Assembly (NCBI RefSeq): GCF_002117485.1
Contig: NZ_CP021030.1
Span: forward strand, 1,987,001 to 2,051,000
From: Rhizobium sp. NXC14
GTDB taxonomy: Bacteria > Pseudomonadota > Alphaproteobacteria > Rhizobiales > Rhizobiaceae
Length of the DNA: 64,000 nt
Direction: 5' to 3'
This document shows positions 14,853 to 63,313 of this stretch, one piece after another (position 1 is the stretch's first letter; each line of letters opens with the position of its first letter). The position numbers and the translations under genes are program-made. Below the pieces are notes generated by a model that worked only from the letters and a program-made list of their open reading frames with translations, made no database searches and was not told the DNA's origin.

Positions 14853-15707
14853 TCACGCGGGGTGCGCATCATTCCCCTTCAACAGGTATGTTACGAACGA
14901 AGCGCAGACGCCCAGCATGAATAGTGCATCCCGCTCGGTCACATTCGCATCGCCCTGATCAAACAGCGAGTGCCGCACGCCTTGCTCGTTACTAGTGTAG
15001 GCATAGAGCTTCTCAAGGGCTATTCGAAAAGCTTCATGCATAGGCTCGGCCTTATTGAGCGCCTTTAAAGCACCCGCAAAACTTCCTGTTTGACCGGTCT
15101 TCTTGAAAGCCACAGCTTCCACGGCATGAATACTTTCCCTGACTGAACCCGCGTAATCACCTGCCGTTAATGCCGTGGAAGCTTTAGATATATGCGAGCG
15201 TACGCCTTCCATGCCTGAGGAGTTTGCCAACTTCACCGCCCTAACTATCGCCTCGCCTTCTTCCGGGGAAGCAACAGGAACGATGTTCCAATCCTCTAGC
15301 CGATATGCAGCGCGCTCGGACTTCATTATATTGCCGATCCATTGAGCCACTTCGGGGTTTCTAAGCGCCCTTACGAACCACTCAACGAAGCCGAAAACAT
15401 CCGAGAAAGATGCCTCTGGCGCGAATTTCCTCTTCCACAGTTTGATGATTTTGTCCGTTTGGTTGTCCCATTCATCGATAAGGATATTTTCCCTTTCGAT
15501 CATGTACCGCTTAGCCACGCGGCGGATTGGATCATCAAGATAAGTACTGTTGCCGTACATCTTGCTTTTTTGGATTTGGGTGTGGATTAAATCCCATAGA
15601 CGGGCTTTGAGTACTGGGCTCACTTCATCCAATTTGAGTTGAGAAGGCAGAGGATCGATTCCCATTGCTTGCTCAAAGGTAATTGAACTTCGGTAGTTGT
15701 TGCTCAT
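14853..15707 (-). CDS. AbiJ-type abortive infection protein (NTD4 plus HEPN-like C-terminus)
   Basis: 284 residues from the ATG at 15707 (GGACCGGG just upstream); a longer start at 15752 is possible. The N-terminal part (ITFEQAMGIDPLPSQLKLDE, then LKARLWDLIH) fits the AbiJ NTD4 module. The C-terminal third (YAGSVRESIHAVEAVAFKK, FAGALKAL, YAYTSNEQGVRHSLFD, FMLGVCASFVTYLL) matches the conserved end of the same proteins, predicted HEPN RNase-like. AbiJ proteins abort phage infection. The gene stands alone, opposite to all other phage genes, with lower GC and its own promoter region, which is the pattern of a lysogenic-conversion gene that excludes other phages. Target and catalytic residues are not determined here. 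Confidence 0.8.
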   Translation of the reverse strand: MSNNYRSSITFEQAMGIDPLPSQLKLDEVSPVLKARLWDLIHTQIQKSKMYGNSTYLDDPIRRVAKRYMIERENILIDEWDNQTDKIIKLWKRKFAPEASFSDVFGFVEWFVRALRNPEVAQWIGNIMKSERAAYRLEDWNIVPVASPEEGEAIVRAVKLANSSGMEGVRSHISKASTALTAGDYAGSVRESIHAVEAVAFKKTGQTGSFAGALKALNKAEPMHEAFRIALEKLYAYTSNEQGVRHSLFDQGDANVTERDALFMLGVCASFVTYLLKGNDAHPA

Positions 15708-15720
15708 GTCCCGGTCCGAT

Positions 15721-15728
15721 TGAGTCGC
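15721..15728 (-). promoter_or_regulatory. GCGACTCA motif upstream of the AbiJ-type gene
   Basis: On the - strand this reads ATTGACGCGACTCAATCGG, 14 bases before the chosen ATG. It shares the octamer and part of the upstream ATTG with the copy at 13915. ATTGAC could also serve as a host -35-like element. Confidence 0.3.
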
Positions 15729-15850
15729 GTCAATTACATGAGCATGACACAACCAATGATCCTAGTGATCGGGCAAAAACAAACTCTGACTCAAAATCAA
15801 CAACTTAGCTGGGGTCGATGAGTTTTTCACAATCTGCCACTTTACAATCA

Positions 15851-15864
15851 ACTCACCAGTGAAT
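15851..15864. promoter_or_regulatory. Dyad copy (ACTCAC-CA-GTGAAT)
   Basis: Member of the six-copy dyad family. TCACCAGTGA is a symmetric core. It lies about 145 bases upstream of the AbiJ-type gene, between it and the first hammerhead. Confidence 0.5.
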
Positions 15865-15951
15865 ATATCTAGCTCACCAAATCGGGGCGGCACTGGTCGG
15901 CCTGAGGCGGAGGTGAGGGGCAGACAGGCCGCTCGGTTCTTTGACAATCGA

Positions 15952-16007
15952 ATAGGTACGGGGCTGATGCTGCCCTGCTGATGAGGCCAAGCCATGGCCG
16001 AAACCAT
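15952..16007 (+). ncRNA. Hammerhead ribozyme candidate 1 (type III topology)
   Basis: Order along the strand: stem III 5' arm AT(A)GGT (15952-15957), cleavage base A15958, stem I CGGGGC/GCCCTG (15959-15964 with 15972-15977, loop TGATGCT), core CTGATGA (15978-15984), stem II GGCCA/TGGCC (15985-15989 with 15995-15999), GAAA (16000-16003), stem III 3' arm ACCAT (16003-16007). Every core nucleotide of the hammerhead consensus is present and GUA is an allowed cleavage triplet. Stem III is short with one bulged A, so activity is less certain than for the copy at 17888. Predicted cut between 15958 and 15959, 416 bases before the GP88-like start. Confidence 0.75.
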
Positions 16008-16019
16008 CCACCAGTGAAT
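16006..16019. promoter_or_regulatory. Dyad copy overlapping the end of hammerhead 1
   Basis: ATCCAC-CA-GTGAAT. It shares bases 16006-16007 with stem III of the ribozyme, so protein binding to the DNA or RNA here could interact with ribozyme folding. Confidence 0.55.
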
Positions 16020-16179
16020 TGCTCAAGCTTATCATTGAGGGCAACGCCTAGCTGCCTTGAATGGTGCGCTTGCTGGCCATGATGAATGGCCCACGAAAGC
16101 CCGCACTCGGAAGCCGCGACGACACAGCGGCACCGCAGGGGGATTAGCCATGCTCACATGGTCAATCACTCTTCGTTGG

Positions 16180-16213
16180 AAAAAGAAAAAGACCACGGTC
16201 TGGATCACCGTGG
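16180..16213 (-). terminator. Intrinsic terminator reading leftward
   Basis: On the - strand the stem CCACGGT/ACCGTGG (16213-16207 with 16199-16193) with a 7-base loop is followed by TCTTTTTCTTTTT, a very good terminator. On the + strand the tail is only CCCTTTATC. No - strand gene lies upstream of it before the tRNA at 18943, so it may stop antisense transcription before it enters hammerhead 1 and the AbiJ-type gene. Confidence 0.65.
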
Positions 16214-16345
16214 CCCTTTATCTAACCCTCTAGCGAAGGGGCTCTATGGTCGAAAGGCCATAGGGCTCCTGCATCCTACTCAAACCCTCAAGCGACCGCA
16301 AGGCGGCTATACAGGGCACATCAAGGGCTTGGTGCGTCTCGATAT

Positions 16346-16359
16346 ATCCACCTGTGAAT
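16346..16359. promoter_or_regulatory. Dyad copy before the GP88-like gene
   Basis: ATCCAC-CT-GTGAAT, followed directly by the ribosome site TAAAGGAG and the ATG at 16375. The position is suited to an operator or a translational control site. Confidence 0.55.
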
Positions 16360-16374
16360 TAAAGGAGATGCGGC

Positions 16375-17142
16375 ATGTTCAAAGGAACACTAATTCGGTC
16401 TGGCAACAATGCGAAGACGGTCAAGGGAGATGGCGAATATGAAACCGCCATTATGTACCTTGCGCCCTTCACTCTGGCAGGCTCGAACGTCTGCCCGATG
16501 GCGGAACAAGCGGGCTGTGTCAAAGGCTGCTTGAACACGGCAGGTAGGGGCGCTTTCAACAACGTCCAGAAGGCGCGCATAGCGAAGACGAAGCGTTACC
16601 TCAGTGACCGCAAGGCTTTCATGGCCGAATTGGTCAACGATCTGCAGCGCTTCGTTGCCTACTGCGACCGCAAGGGCGTGAAGCCTGCAGTCCGCTTGAA
16701 CGGCACATCTGACATTCAATGGGAGGTGGCCCATCCTGCGCAGATCGTTGACTTCCGTGGTCGCGTTTATCGGTTCGGATCGATCTTTGAGGCTTTCCCA
16801 GAGATCAAATTTTACGACTACACGAAGGTTTACAAGCGGGCCTACCGCGATCTGCCGGTAAATTACACACTGGTCTTGAGCTACAGCGCTGCCAATGCGG
16901 CCTACGCTGAGGCTGTCACCAAGGCTGCCAGGGAAACCGGCGCGAACCTCGTTGTAGTCTATCGCAGCAAGGAAATCCGTGACGCTGTCGTTCAGTCAGG
17001 CCCCGATTACTACATCTCGTCTCGCCCGGTGATTGATGGTGACCAGACCGATCTCCGCTTCACAGACCCTAAAGGGGTGATTGTCGGGCTCTACGCTAAG
17101 GGGGCTGCCAAGGGCGACCGCTCGGGCTTCGTCGTCGGCTGA
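16375..17142 (+). CDS. GP88-like phage early protein
   Basis: 255 residues with a strong site (AAAGGAG, 7 bases to ATG). Four cysteines are clustered in VCPMAEQAGCVKGCLNTAGRG (residues 40-60), followed by AR-rich helices. This matches what I recall of the phage gene product 88 family, whose role is unknown; the cysteine pattern suggests a metal or cluster site. The end of the frame is compact and regular, with codon use like other phage genes. The gene lies between hammerheads 1 and 2, so its message would be released as a separate RNA of about 1236 bases. The family name is tentative. Confidence 0.7.
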   Translation: MFKGTLIRSGNNAKTVKGDGEYETAIMYLAPFTLAGSNVCPMAEQAGCVKGCLNTAGRGAFNNVQKARIAKTKRYLSDRKAFMAELVNDLQRFVAYCDRKGVKPAVRLNGTSDIQWEVAHPAQIVDFRGRVYRFGSIFEAFPEIKFYDYTKVYKRAYRDLPVNYTLVLSYSAANAAYAEAVTKAARETGANLVVVYRSKEIRDAVVQSGPDYYISSRPVIDGDQTDLRFTDPKGVIVGLYAKGAAKGDRSGFVVG

Positions 17143-17145
17143 ATA

Positions 17146-17159
17146 ATCCACCAGTGAAT
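17146..17159. promoter_or_regulatory. Dyad copy between the GP88-like gene and hammerhead 2
   Basis: ATCCAC-CA-GTGAAT, identical to the copy at 16006. It lies 3 bases after the GP88-like stop and 5 bases before hammerhead 2. Confidence 0.55.
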
Positions 17160-17164
17160 TAAAT

Positions 17165-17227
17165 GCCGAAACTGGCTGCCATGCGCGGCCGGTCGCGGGG
17201 CTTGGCATGCCCCCGCCTGACGATGGC
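17165..17227 (+). ncRNA. Hammerhead ribozyme candidate 2 (type II topology)
   Basis: Order: stem II 3' arm GCC (17165-17167), GAAA (17168-17171), stem III ACTGGCTGC/GCGGCCGGT (17171-17179 with 17185-17193; 9 pairs, loop CATGC), cleavage base C17194, stem I GCGGGG/CCCCGC (17195-17200 with 17211-17216), core CTGACGA (17217-17223), one extra T, stem II 5' arm GGC (17225-17227). Stems I and III abut the core exactly. Stem II has only 3 pairs and an extra base after A9; an extra base at this point is known from a viroid hammerhead. Predicted cut after 17194, in the leader of the gene at 17249, leaving its ribosome site intact. Confidence 0.72.
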
Positions 17228-17248
17228 TGCCGATTGAAGGGAATGCAG

Positions 17249-17467
17249 ATGGCCCGAAAGCCGAGGAAGTATTACACGCTTGTCGCCCTTGTGGATGGCC
17301 GCTGGGGCGTTCAGTTCGGAGCATATGAGCGCGGCGACGTGGTGGCAGAACGCGCTGCCTATATTGAGAATGGTGAAGCCAAGGCCAAAGAGCTGAAGAT
17401 CATCACCACGGGCGACAAGGTCGAAGAAATTAACGCGGCAGTCGCCAAGCTGAACGGGGAGGGCTGA
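17249..17467 (+). CDS. Small early phage protein, unknown
   Basis: 72 residues from the ATG at 17249, which has GAAGGGA 6 bases upstream. An in-frame ATG at 17207 lies within hammerhead 2 stem I and would be separated from any ribosome site after cleavage, so it is rejected. The protein is Lys/Arg-rich at the start (MARKPRKYYTLVALVDGRWG), with a beta-like first half and a helical acidic-basic second half. Its opening resembles that of the 54-residue protein at 17694 (both have a KGRW or DGRWG motif), so they may be related. No function can be assigned; early T7-type genes of this size often disarm host proteins. Confidence 0.65.
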   Translation: MARKPRKYYTLVALVDGRWGVQFGAYERGDVVAERAAYIENGEAKAKELKIITTGDKVEEINAAVAKLNGEG

Positions 17468-17469
17468 TC

Positions 17470-17694
17470 ATGGCCCGCTACCTGCCCACCATCGACATTT
17501 GGGAGGTCCCCGAGGATGGCCGCGCATCGCTCCAGATCGGGCAATGGGTGAAGGCCGGTCCTGATGGCCCGAAAGGGCGCTTCTACGGGCAAGGCGCATC
17601 CACCGTTGTTGCCTTCCTGCCGAACGCTCGCGGTCGCTATCGGTCCTACATGGCCACCATACGCGACTATGGGCGCACTGTGAGGGCGCGCTGA
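17470..17694 (+). CDS. Small early phage protein, unknown
   Basis: 74 residues, starting 2 bases after the preceding stop, with GGGGAGGG as ribosome site inside that gene's end. MARYLPTIDIWEVPEDGRAS opens a Gly/Arg-rich basic protein ending in VRAR. Its stop overlaps the next ATG (TGATG), so three genes are coupled. I do not recognise the family. Confidence 0.65.
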   Translation: MARYLPTIDIWEVPEDGRASLQIGQWVKAGPDGPKGRFYGQGASTVVAFLPNARGRYRSYMATIRDYGRTVRAR

Positions 17695-17858
17695 TGGCCG
17701 CTACCTACCACGTTCGCAAGGTTGCCAAGGGTCGCTGGGCGGTGACCTCAGTCATTCCTGGCTGGATCACACCAATCGGCACCTTCAGCAAGCGTTCGGC
17801 CGCAATCACCACAGCCCGTCTCCTGGCCGGCTGGCGGTCGGCTGTCGTCGTCCACTGA
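17694..17858 (+). CDS. 54-residue early phage protein, unknown
   Basis: The ATG overlaps the preceding stop. The product (MAATYHVRKVAKGRWAVTSV...) is basic with a KGRW motif like DGRWG in the gene at 17249, suggesting an internal duplication of a small-domain gene. It ends 29 bases before hammerhead 3, so it is the last gene of the ribozyme-bounded unit. The frame is short, and support comes from overlap and codon use. Confidence 0.6.
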   Translation: MAATYHVRKVAKGRWAVTSVIPGWITPIGTFSKRSAAITTARLLAGWRSAVVVH

Positions 17859-17887
17859 TGCGCAACTAGTTGTATTTCTCCCGCGCC

Positions 17888-17964
17888 GGTTTACCACCTG
17901 ATGAGGCCCTAAGGCCGAAACCTAGAGAACTGTCCAGTACGGTTCTCGACGGTCGTGGTTATCC
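17888..17964 (+). ncRNA. Hammerhead ribozyme 3 (type I topology)
   Basis: Order: stem I 5' arm GGTTTACCAC (17888-17897), core CTGATGA (17898-17904), stem II GGCC-CTAA-GGCC (17905-17916), GAAA (17917-17920), stem III arms ACC and GGT (17920-17922 with 17951-17953), an internal loop, then a 9-pair helix GAGAACTGT/ACGGTTCTC (17925-17933 with 17939-17947; loop CCAGT), cleavage base C17954, stem I 3' arm GTGGTTATCC (17955-17964, 5 continuous pairs then 3 more with two mismatches). All core positions fit the consensus. It lies 30 bases after the last small gene and would define the 3' end of that message. Confidence 0.9.
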
Positions 17965-17983
17965 ACAGCAATCCACCGCTTTT

Positions 17984-18005
17984 GAACCTAAGGCTCCTTA
18001 GGTTC
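17984..18005. other. Perfect 10-base inverted repeat after hammerhead 3
   Basis: GAACCTAAGG-CT-CCTTAGGTTC. There is no T-tract, so it is not a standard terminator. It could protect the 3' fragment or be a DNA binding site. Confidence 0.6.
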
Positions 18006-18198
18006 AACAAGGCGGACTGCTCTCCTGGTAAGTGCCTAATTTGACTTCGCTTTGGGCCATGAACGCCCGCGTATCATCACCATGTATCGGTGAAGCAGAG
18101 TTTTAGATTTTGCATGGCTGATATGCTCCTGATGCAGTGCTGGATAGGATATTTTTCCTATATCATTAACGAAAGTTAATGTGAAATCAGGCACATGC

Positions 18199-18206
18199 GC
18201 GACTCA
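18199..18206 (+). promoter_or_regulatory. GCGACTCA motif
   Basis: Fourth copy of the octamer, in the AT-rich leader ahead of the gene at 18351. Confidence 0.3.
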
Positions 18207-18242
18207 GGGGGTAGATGAAACGACAACTATCTGCCTGTACCT

Positions 18243-18254
18243 ATTCACCAGTGG
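18243..18254. promoter_or_regulatory. Dyad copy (ATTCAC-CA-GTGG)
   Basis: The rightmost and least regular member of the family. It lies about 100 bases before the GTG at 18351. Confidence 0.45.
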
Positions 18255-18350
18255 CATTTTTGCTGCTTGTGGTGCGTATCAGGGCAGAGGTATATCCGCT
18301 TCCGTCCTGAAACGAGAACAGGACGCGAACGGCAAGTGAGGGGTTAATTA

Positions 18351-18506
18351 GTGCGCCTATTCAAAAAAACTAAGCGATTTGAAGTGTATATCGAGATCGA
18401 ACGCTCTCGTATTCTGGATCGCTTTTTTAGCTACCGCTGCGACGACGGGAACCACGAGCTTTGGCTCGGTCGATGCTATATCACGCTGTTTATTGCACAA
18501 ACCTAA
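18351..18506 (+). CDS. 51-residue phage protein with GTG start, unknown
   Basis: The GTG at 18351 follows GAGGGG by 7 bases. The product begins VRLFKKTKRFEVYIEIERSR and is mixed charged with several aromatic residues; no motif is recognised. It sits ahead of the winged-helix regulator gene, from which it is separated by 62 bases. Confidence 0.5.
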   Translation: MRLFKKTKRFEVYIEIERSRILDRFFSYRCDDGNHELWLGRCYITLFIAQT

Positions 18507-18568
18507 CCACGGGTGTATGGGTTCCATCGTACCGCCCCGGGCTGGGGCCAATAAGAGGGACACTCCAC

Positions 18569-18955
18569 ATGCCCAAGGCACTGTTTTCGCGCATGAGCGC
18601 GGTCATGAATGAGGTGCGCCAGCTCCAAGACGAGAAGGCGCTCATGTCGGTGCAGACCTTCGAGGTTTTCCTCGTGATCGCATCGAAGGAGGGCATAGCG
18701 TCCTCCGAAATCAGAAAGATAACGGGCATCCCGCAGCCGTCTGTAAGCCGTGCTTTGGGTGATCTCGGAGAGAAGGCCGTCCGCCGCGATGCGGAGGGCC
18801 TCAAGCTGATCAAGACCGAGCGCGATCCCAGCGATCTGCGCAATGTAGTCTGCTTCCTGACCCCGAAAGGGAAACTATTGGCTGCCCGAATAGCGCAGCT
18901 AATGGGCATCGACGACACCAAGGTAGACGGGTCGTTTGTAAGTGGTGCCCAGTGA
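18569..18955 (+). CDS. Winged-helix (MarR-like) phage regulator
   Basis: 128 residues from the ATG at 18569 (site AGAGGGA); a longer frame from 18461 lacks support. Residues about 25-105 form a winged helix-turn-helix: SVQTFEVFLVIASKEGIASS, then SEIRKITGIPQPSVSRALGD as recognition helices and a beta wing (LKLIKTERD). Next to the integrase it is a candidate lysogeny repressor or excision control factor and could be the protein that binds the dyad family. Its last 13 bases overlap the CCA end of the tRNA-Leu on the other strand. Function is inferred from fold and position. Confidence 0.7.
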   Translation: MPKALFSRMSAVMNEVRQLQDEKALMSVQTFEVFLVIASKEGIASSEIRKITGIPQPSVSRALGDLGEKAVRRDAEGLKLIKTERDPSDLRNVVCFLTPKGKLLAARIAQLMGIDDTKVDGSFVSGAQ

Positions 18956-19027
18956 GGGACTCGAACCCCCACACCTCTCGGCGCTTGGACCTAAACCAAG
19001 TGCGTCTACCAATTCCGCCAACTGGGC
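18943..19027 (-). tRNA. Phage tRNA-Leu(TAG)
   Basis: 85 bases with encoded CCA (18943-18945). Acceptor arms GCCCAGT/ACTGGGC pair fully, the anticodon loop TTTAGGT (anticodon at 18993-18991) has stems CTTGG/CCAAG, and there is a class II variable arm. It has the same anticodon as the host gene broken by integration (20173-20230) but a clearly different sequence. It is divergent from the integrase gene, 18 bases away. Confidence 0.93.
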
Positions 19028-20172: not shown

Positions 20173-20230
20173 TCAGATTTAGGTTCTGGTGCCGCAAGGC
20201 GTGGGAGTTCAAGTCTCTCTACCCGCACCA
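20173..20230 (+). other. attR: 3' part of host tRNA-Leu(TAG)
   Basis: From the anticodon stem (TCAGA, loop TTTAGGT, TCTGG) through variable arm, T arm (TTCAAGT loop) and acceptor end with CCA (20228-20230) this is the 3' part of a class II tRNA-Leu with anticodon TAG. The 5' third is missing and replaced by phage sequence (GTAAGTAAAACGGGTGAA), so the attachment core lies at or near the anticodon arm. The full-length gene should be rebuilt at attL, outside the window. Confidence 0.9.
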
Positions 20231-62827: not shown

Positions 62828-63313
62828 ATGCGCGGCATCGTCCTGTTTCATGCGATCAGAAGCGCCGTCATGGCGCTTTTTTTCTTGGTCGCCCTGCCGG
62901 CTTTGGCTGAGGAGGAGATGCGGTTCGAAAGGGAGCCGCTGCTCATCCAGACAGCCGCCGGCAAGATGCTGCATTTTACCGTCGAGGTCGCCGCCACCGG
63001 TGATCAGCGCGCCCGCGGCCTGATGTTTCGCAAGTCGATGGCTGATGACGCCGGCATGATTTTCGATTTCGGGCAAACACGGCGCGTTGCCATGTGGATG
63101 GAGAACACCATCCTGCCGCTCGACATGCTCTTTGCCGACGACACCGGCACGATCCGCCACATCAAGGAAAACGCAAAACCCTATTCACGCGAGATCATCG
63201 ATTCGATGAGCCCGGTGAAATACGTCGTCGAACTCAATGCCGGCATCGTCGGCAAATTCGGAATCAAGCCGGGCGACAGAATCGTGAGCGCCACGACGAC
63301 GAAGGCGAAGTGA
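62828..63313 (+). CDS. DUF192 secreted protein
   Basis: 161 residues. The signal peptide MRGIVLFHAIRSAVMALFFL continues to ALPALA, with cleavage near residue 27. The DUF192 core: ARGLMFRKSMADDAGMIFDF, MWMENTILPLDMLF and VVELNAGIVGKFGIKPGDRI. Function unknown; coupled by spacing to the cold-shock gene. Confidence 0.9.
   Translation: MRGIVLFHAIRSAVMALFFLVALPALAEEEMRFEREPLLIQTAAGKMLHFTVEVAATGDQRARGLMFRKSMADDAGMIFDFGQTRRVAMWMENTILPLDMLFADDTGTIRHIKENAKPYSREIIDSMSPVKYVVELNAGIVGKFGIKPGDRIVSATTTKAK

Follow-up and report, generated by a model that had tools for sequence, protein, structure and literature searches.

A 64,000-nucleotide stretch of the Rhizobium sp. NXC14 genome (NZ_CP021030.1, positions 1,987,001 to 2,051,000; hereafter the window) contains, in the early region of a temperate T7-like prophage, three hammerhead ribozymes (HHRs) that lie on the + strand and follow one another as types III, II and I, that is, in three different circular permutations. 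The motifs are conserved and their helices covary in related phages, and the genes that they flank change from one phage to another. Going by the sequence, we think it probable that the three HHRs cut the early transcript into a 1,236-base mRNA for a GP88-family gene and a 760-base mRNA for three small genes.

Hammerhead motifs and predicted cut sites

HHR-III (15952-16007, +) combines the cut site GUA/C (the slash marks the predicted cut) with CUGAUGA, GAAA and a 5-bp stem II, and would be cut after 15958. HHR-II (17165-17227, +, with a 3' tail to 17233) has GUC/G, CUGACGA plus an extra U, and GAAA, its predicted cut lying after 17194; HHR-I (17893-17959, +) has CUGAUGA, GAAA and GUC/G, with a predicted cut after 17954. 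Direct reading finds the CUGANGA and GAAA core and an NUH cut triplet in all three, and confirms the hammerheads, with the strand, permutations and cut positions proposed for them in an earlier sequence-only reading of this DNA. Successive predicted cuts are 1236 and then 760 nt apart, which matches the product sizes given in that reading. Its further claim that the cuts fall only in non-coding sequence holds for the likely + strand genes, outside which all three lie, but not for the opposite strand, where an open reading frame (ORF) at 15762-16007 overlaps HHR-III; the counterpart of this ORF in phage RHEph01 (469-714, minus) is annotated as a hypothetical gene.

A permissive Rfam search of positions 15000-19000 (E≤10) returned the three hammerheads among the six matches listed, all belonging to clan CL00010 (RF02276, 26.9 bits, E 0.019; RF00008, 26.2 bits, E 0.018; RF02275, 19.4 bits, E 0.28). 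Across the whole 6.69-Mb genome, RF00008 (E≤10) matches at the HHR-III and HHR-I sites only, and two models that we built from relatives, R1 (type II, E≤0.01) and R2 (type I, E≤1), match this locus only. A hammerhead descriptor applied to both strands of the window retrieved the three plus one further match, as compared to zero matches in 1.92 Mb of Markov-random sequence. The further match, at 62878-62935, is type III-like with a CUGAGGA core, is absent from the RF00008 genome scan at E≤10, and is likely due to chance.

Conservation and covariation in related phages

GP88 searches, together with phage records, yielded 60 loci (repeats included) with this phage type or its kin; a match to PF17338 (GP88) is present in 239 phage records. 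Covariation is strong for type II. Alignment A3 holds 16 distinct type II elements; the near-duplicates L011 and L013 were left out, and L043, a canonical type II without the extra nucleotide, was placed in alignment A1 and excluded from A3. Within A3, 96.2% of cells are paired, both-side changes are seen in 11 of the 19 pairs, and none of 500 shuffles does as well. The tertiary contact checked for HHR-II, a pseudoknot that joins loop I to the 3' tail (GGCA/UGCC), changes on both sides in 3/4 pairs of the same alignment. All 16 A3 elements share the extra nucleotide that follows CUGANGA ahead of stem II, and in 15 of them it is U. Type I can have one as well: each of three consecutive type I hammerheads at L073:205-3663 has an extra nucleotide after CUGANGA.

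For type I (eight sequences) covariation is modest, with both-side changes in 3/18 pairs, all in outer stem III. The few type III sequences include homologues of HHR-III in RHEph01 (L059), RHEph21 (L060) and L100. Compared with the window or L009, RHEph21 has both sides of pairs 1 and 2 of stem I changed, and in RHph_I20 the same place is taken by a type III whose sequence is quite different. The covariation that the sequence-only reading had suggested seeking in related prophages is thus found, to a degree that differs by type. Relatives have separate homologues for each of the three positions, in agreement with the earlier argument that separate permutations speak against simple duplication.

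Four type II homologues located in relatives' early regions score above the 37-bit Rfam cut-off, two of them in L061 (44.9 and 38.2 bits) and one each in L022 (38.2) and L012 (38.0); sites at the exact HHR-II position there score 28.4 to 35.6 bits. RF02276 found three of 385 genomes of the class at E≤0.001. R1 found 18 of 297 genomes of the family at E≤0.01, with scores above 30 bits only in the NXC14 genome itself and G212, and four of 148 genomes of the genus at E≤1e-4. Phage vB_RleA_TRX32-1, recorded as lysogen-induced, carries II and I ribozymes; other relatives have II-I, II-II-I, II-II-II, III only, or III-II-II.

Exchangeable cargo genes and flanking palindromes

The window, RHEph01 and L100 have a common layout: a boxA-like motif, HHR-III, cargo, HHR-II, cargo, HHR-I, and a regulator. 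The first slot holds the GP88-family gene in the window (16375-17142, +; PF17338, E 3.9e-46), a 321-amino-acid (aa) protein without a Pfam match in RHEph01, and ArdA (PF07275, E 6.8e-38) in L100, so that the genes enclosed by the same ribozymes vary from phage to phage. The second slot of the window has three small + strand genes without Pfam matches, of 74 aa (17243-17467, the start being taken from the RHEph01 counterpart), 74 aa (17470-17694) and 54 aa (17694-17858). In TRX32-1, which is without HHR-III, similarity to the window breaks off at 15954, just before HHR-III, and starts again at a palindrome, at 16345.

That palindrome is one of a set. The near-palindrome ATCCACCAGTGAAT lies at 16006-16019 (+), with further copies at 15851-15864, 16346-16359 and 17146-17159, and near-palindromes ATYCACNNGTGAAT flank the cargo gene, both ahead of it and directly after it. 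Sites with at most two mismatches to ATTCACNNGTGAAT number six in 64 kb as against 1.8 expected, and four with one mismatch fall inside 1.3 kb; a looser 14-mer repeat scan (at most three mismatches) gave five against 3.3 expected, which is not above chance. The near-palindromes likely bind a protein, which may be the regulator encoded by the phage itself. Just after HHR-I, at 17983-18008, there is also a perfect inverted repeat, GAACCTAAGG/CCTTAGGTTC, without a T-run.

A boxA-like motif ahead of HHR-III

The boxA-like motif GTTCTTTGACA is present as a single copy in the window, at 15936-15946 (+), and ends 12 nt ahead of the HHR-III cut. The pattern GTTCTTTGA[CA]A occurs as one forward copy in 34/60 relative loci (30 distinct contexts) and never in reverse. 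A 16S search of the NXC14 genome returned no rRNA, and comparison was made with ribosomal RNA operon (rrn) leaders on rhizobial plasmids. Of the three leaders examined, two (Rhizobium) have GGTTCTTTGAAAGAGA at a distance of ∼150 nt ahead of the primer site for the 16S 5' end; the motif thus resembles a boxA in sequence (GGTTCTTTGACA as compared to GGTTCTTTGAAA in those two). A Sinorhizobium rrn leader gave no match to the boxA pattern. boxA recruits antitermination factors, as is generally known and as the abstract of PMC10250234 describes, and the motif may act in this way here.

In this lineage the motif directly precedes HHR-III in all five distinct type III loci. Among the loci listed, it directly precedes none of the 121 other distinct type III, 400 type II or 382 type I hammerheads, and the pairing of the boxA-like motif with HHR-III is therefore special to this lineage; boxA as a general type III partner is rejected by the 0/121 count. 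Relatives without HHR-III have another conserved, strongly folding RNA right after the motif (L012:5895-5985; also L005, L010 and L006, and partly L003 and L022). Its folding z-score is -5.2 in L012, -3.0 in L006 and -0.9 in L003, and its inner hairpin covaries between L006 and L022; the RNAs of L003, L010, L012 and L022 have no Rfam match at E≤1.

Hammerhead arrays in other phages

Five pattern scans of viral contigs were combined with the earlier loci; many loci were fetched by a hammerhead-like pattern, and they form a non-random sample rather than a census. Among the matches listed there are at least 560 loci and at least 144 arrays of two or more hammerheads, with up to 11 in succession (L218), as compared to no arrays in 4 Mb of random sequence. 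Five loci (L218, L518, L544, L262 and L554) have 8 to 11 consecutive type II hammerheads on one strand, separated by gene-sized gaps. For the arrays listed, the longest ORF is on the hammerhead strand in 195/257 gaps and on the opposite strand in 61. The hammerhead midpoint falls inside an ORF of at least 100 aa on either strand for 248 of 395 distinct hammerheads vs 6135 of 7900 random points, a weak test because GC-rich DNA is full of open frames.

That type III stands before II, and II before I, is a hypothesis formed after the first arrays had been viewed. In the first set of arrays listed, 15/61 lineages are mixed, 13 of them forward and two reverse (permutation p 0.0023; 0.0019 to 0.022 over seven threshold settings). 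Alternative lineage grouping of this set gives 14/17 forward (p 0.0066), and removal of the window lineage leaves 14 lineages with 17 forward and four reverse pairs (p 0.0092). A planned replication, restricted to lineages that came from two further scans alone (6/28 mixed; three forward, two reverse, one tie), gave p 0.57. Pooling of the arrays listed gives 22/86 mixed lineages, with 16 forward, four reverse and two ties (p 0.035; 0.044 and 0.061 at stricter settings). All-type-I arrays also occur (L073, L349 and others), and would cap one end only.

Proposed segmentation of the early transcript and alternatives

We infer that these three RNAs cut, and propose the following course. A host polymerase transcript carrying the boxA-like antitermination signal would run through the region; HHR-III would cut just past boxA and detach the leader, HHR-II would cut between the cassettes, and HHR-I after them. 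Each freed mRNA would have a 5'-OH stem I hairpin at its start and a 2',3'-cyclic phosphate stem III hairpin at its end. The terminal hairpins would slow decay, and expression of one cassette would not depend on the adjacent ones, no matter which gene had been exchanged into it.

The permutations fit such a scheme. Cutting by a type III hammerhead provides the RNA downstream with stem I as a 5'-terminal hairpin, and cutting by a type I provides the RNA upstream with stem III at its 3' end; a type II cut does both. The order III, II, I consequently gives both released mRNAs hairpins at both ends and leaves the discarded leader without, which offers a simple reason for three permutations in one transcript. 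Computed folds of the product ends are terminal hairpins. The strand GUGGUUAUCCAC (17955-17966, +), freed by the type I cut, can in its computed fold form a 5' hairpin, and GUGG(N4-6)CCAC after the type I cut is kept in 9/9 loci compared. Hairpin ends are expected to stabilise mRNA. The scheme can be extended to a ribozyme-punctuated cassette array, in which the boxA-antiterminated transcript would be cut by permutations set by place (III first, II between, I last), every mRNA would be hairpin-capped at both ends, and any inserted gene would become a self-contained stabilised mRNA; in this general form we regard it as speculative and rather doubtful.

Several results count against segmentation by these hammerheads. 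The sequence-only reading had proposed checking them against the Rfam hammerhead models, and the outcome is divided: all three match in permissive mode, but none is found at the gathering thresholds, their scores being 26.9, 26.2 and 19.4 bits vs cut-offs of 37, 48.5 and 52 (such a cut-off is a curation rule rather than a biochemical feature). HHR-II carries an additional U after CUGACGA, and when its 75 nt are folded, the structure of minimum energy is not the hammerhead; stem III of HHR-III has just 3 bp. Two of the five covariation measures for type I lie within those of shuffles (changed pairs 184/500, pair types 500/500). Hammerheads are found in a minority of the 60 relative loci (11/58, including repeats and pieces of the prophage itself, plus L059, L060, L061 and L100), and are thus not essential to the phage type. 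A scan of 15600-18300 for sigma-70-like promoters found none, and the order rule failed to replicate.

Cutting might instead be a by-product, with selection acting on the hammerhead DNA and its flanking palindromes as conserved recombination borders for cassette exchange. This would account for different genes between the same ribozymes and for similarity blocks that start or stop at element edges (15954 and 16345 in L003; 16019, 17165 and 17893 in L100; 17139 in L059; 16006 in L060). Yet block edges at conserved elements arise partly by construction, other edges lie elsewhere (16304, 17464, 17476, 17682 and 16580), and covariation preserves RNA helices despite sequence change, for which a DNA border has no need; we consider this explanation unlikely. 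A main role for HHR-III in antitermination, parting the boxA-bound leader from the mRNA with the other two hammerheads secondary, seems to us more improbable still. In phage lambda, RNase III cuts between nutL and N, and the boxA-like motif stands before HHR-III in 5/5 loci of the lineage as against 0/400 type II and 0/382 type I. However, it is missing from all 121 other type III hammerheads, 29 of the 34 motif-bearing loci are outside those five, and boxA function is itself read from sequence. Finally, the hammerheads could be relics or condition-dependent switches, inactive or conditional, on a transcript that is not segmented. The sub-threshold Rfam scores, the extra core nucleotide and the competing HHR-II fold would suit this, but a triple of the same layout was reported active in 2011, according to passages of PMC3088659, and L100, which fits that triple, shares the extra U; core and pairing are moreover kept across divergent relatives, and we deem this explanation very improbable.

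Relation to known systems

Segmentation of the early transcript, our preferred explanation, bears on the role of hammerheads in phages, which has been open since 2011. Through this locus, hammerheads are linked with the early region, transcribed by the host, of temperate T7-like phages that include the named isolates RHEph01 and vB_RleA_TRX32-1, with a boxA-like motif, and with exchangeable cargo such as the antirestriction gene ardA; this opens the mRNA-segmentation idea to direct testing. In T7, early mRNA is cut between genes by RNase III. The processing proposed here would be similar in its early host-transcribed region, its intergenic cuts and its products with terminal hairpins; unlike T7 processing, it would need no host enzyme and would leave 5'-OH and cyclic phosphate ends in place of 5'-phosphate and 3'-OH. 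The sequence-only reading, which cast the ribozymes in the role of RNase III, drew a sound inference, but passages of PMC3088659 had already proposed segmentation for such clusters in 2011. The boxA-like motif, the exchange of cassettes, the palindromes, the loop I/tail pseudoknot and the extra core U go beyond that reading.

In the passages concerned, Perreault et al. (2011; PMC3088659) describe multiple hammerheads flanking prophage genes and propose processing into gene- or operon-length mRNAs. For their Agrobacterium tumefaciens triple, which surrounds ardA and has marR and integrase in its context, they report in vitro products of the expected sizes as well as cutting in E. coli. The sequence-only reading had regarded circular or ligated RNAs made by RtcB as conceivable; according to these passages, neither spliced nor circular products were detected in the 2011 study. 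As described there, this triple is like that of the window in its three hammerheads flanking early phage genes in a marR and integrase context, and differs in ardA, whose place in the window is taken by GP88 and further small genes. L100 (III-ardA-II-gene-I-marR) is homologous to the window and fits that description, and may be the same prophage. Since a trio much like this one had been reported in 2011, the present locus adds an example to a kind already known. Neither boxA nor palindromes nor an order of types comes up in the passages of PMC3088659 concerned, and we found no earlier description, by title or abstract, of a link between hammerheads and boxA or of an order of types. As far as our searches go, the boxA-like motif before HHR-III, gene swapping between ribozymes and runs of up to 11 consecutive hammerheads are new.

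Prophage context

The host element is a temperate T7-like prophage of the Autographiviridae, kin of RHEph01 and vB_RleA_TRX32-1. It has two features by which the family is recognised, a single-subunit phage RNA polymerase (PF00940, E 4.0e-106; C1:1964008-1965201, ∼38.9 kb upstream of HHR-III) and a T7-type terminase (match to the T7 terminase RNase H domain, E 8.6e-42). After the hammerhead region come a MarR-like regulator (18569-18955, +, in an ORF listed from 18461; PF12802, E 5.3e-06, 26.9 bits for a cut-off of 27), whose RHEph01 counterpart is annotated as a transcriptional regulator, and a phage integrase (19046-20062, +; PF00589, E 8.8e-21). In RHEph01 the region is likewise followed by transcriptional regulator, integrase and phage RNA polymerase. 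Passages of PMC8631192 describe the region as a hypervariable early (class I) stretch with bacterial-type promoters; together with the RHEph01 gene order, this upholds the earlier placement of the hammerheads in a prophage early region.

The attachment (att) motif CAGATTTAGGTT can be read at 20174-20185, and is given in PMC8631192, in the part concerned, as the att repeat of the vTRX32-1 family. A 15-bp match to the att site lies at C1:1962387, so that the prophage is likely ∼44.8 kb long. The prophage is like that family, as described in the same part, in its att motif, tRNA-Leu, integrase and hypervariable early region; in the main text of PMC8631192 the words "ribozyme" and "hammerhead" each occur 0 times. 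A 3'-end remnant of the host tRNA-Leu lies at the right prophage border (20174-20228), and the prophage has its own tRNA-Leu at 18943-19027. Between the terminase and the early region is a minus-strand gene with an AbiJ N-terminal domain (14853-15752; PF18863, E 5.6e-10), likely anti-phage cargo of the prophage.

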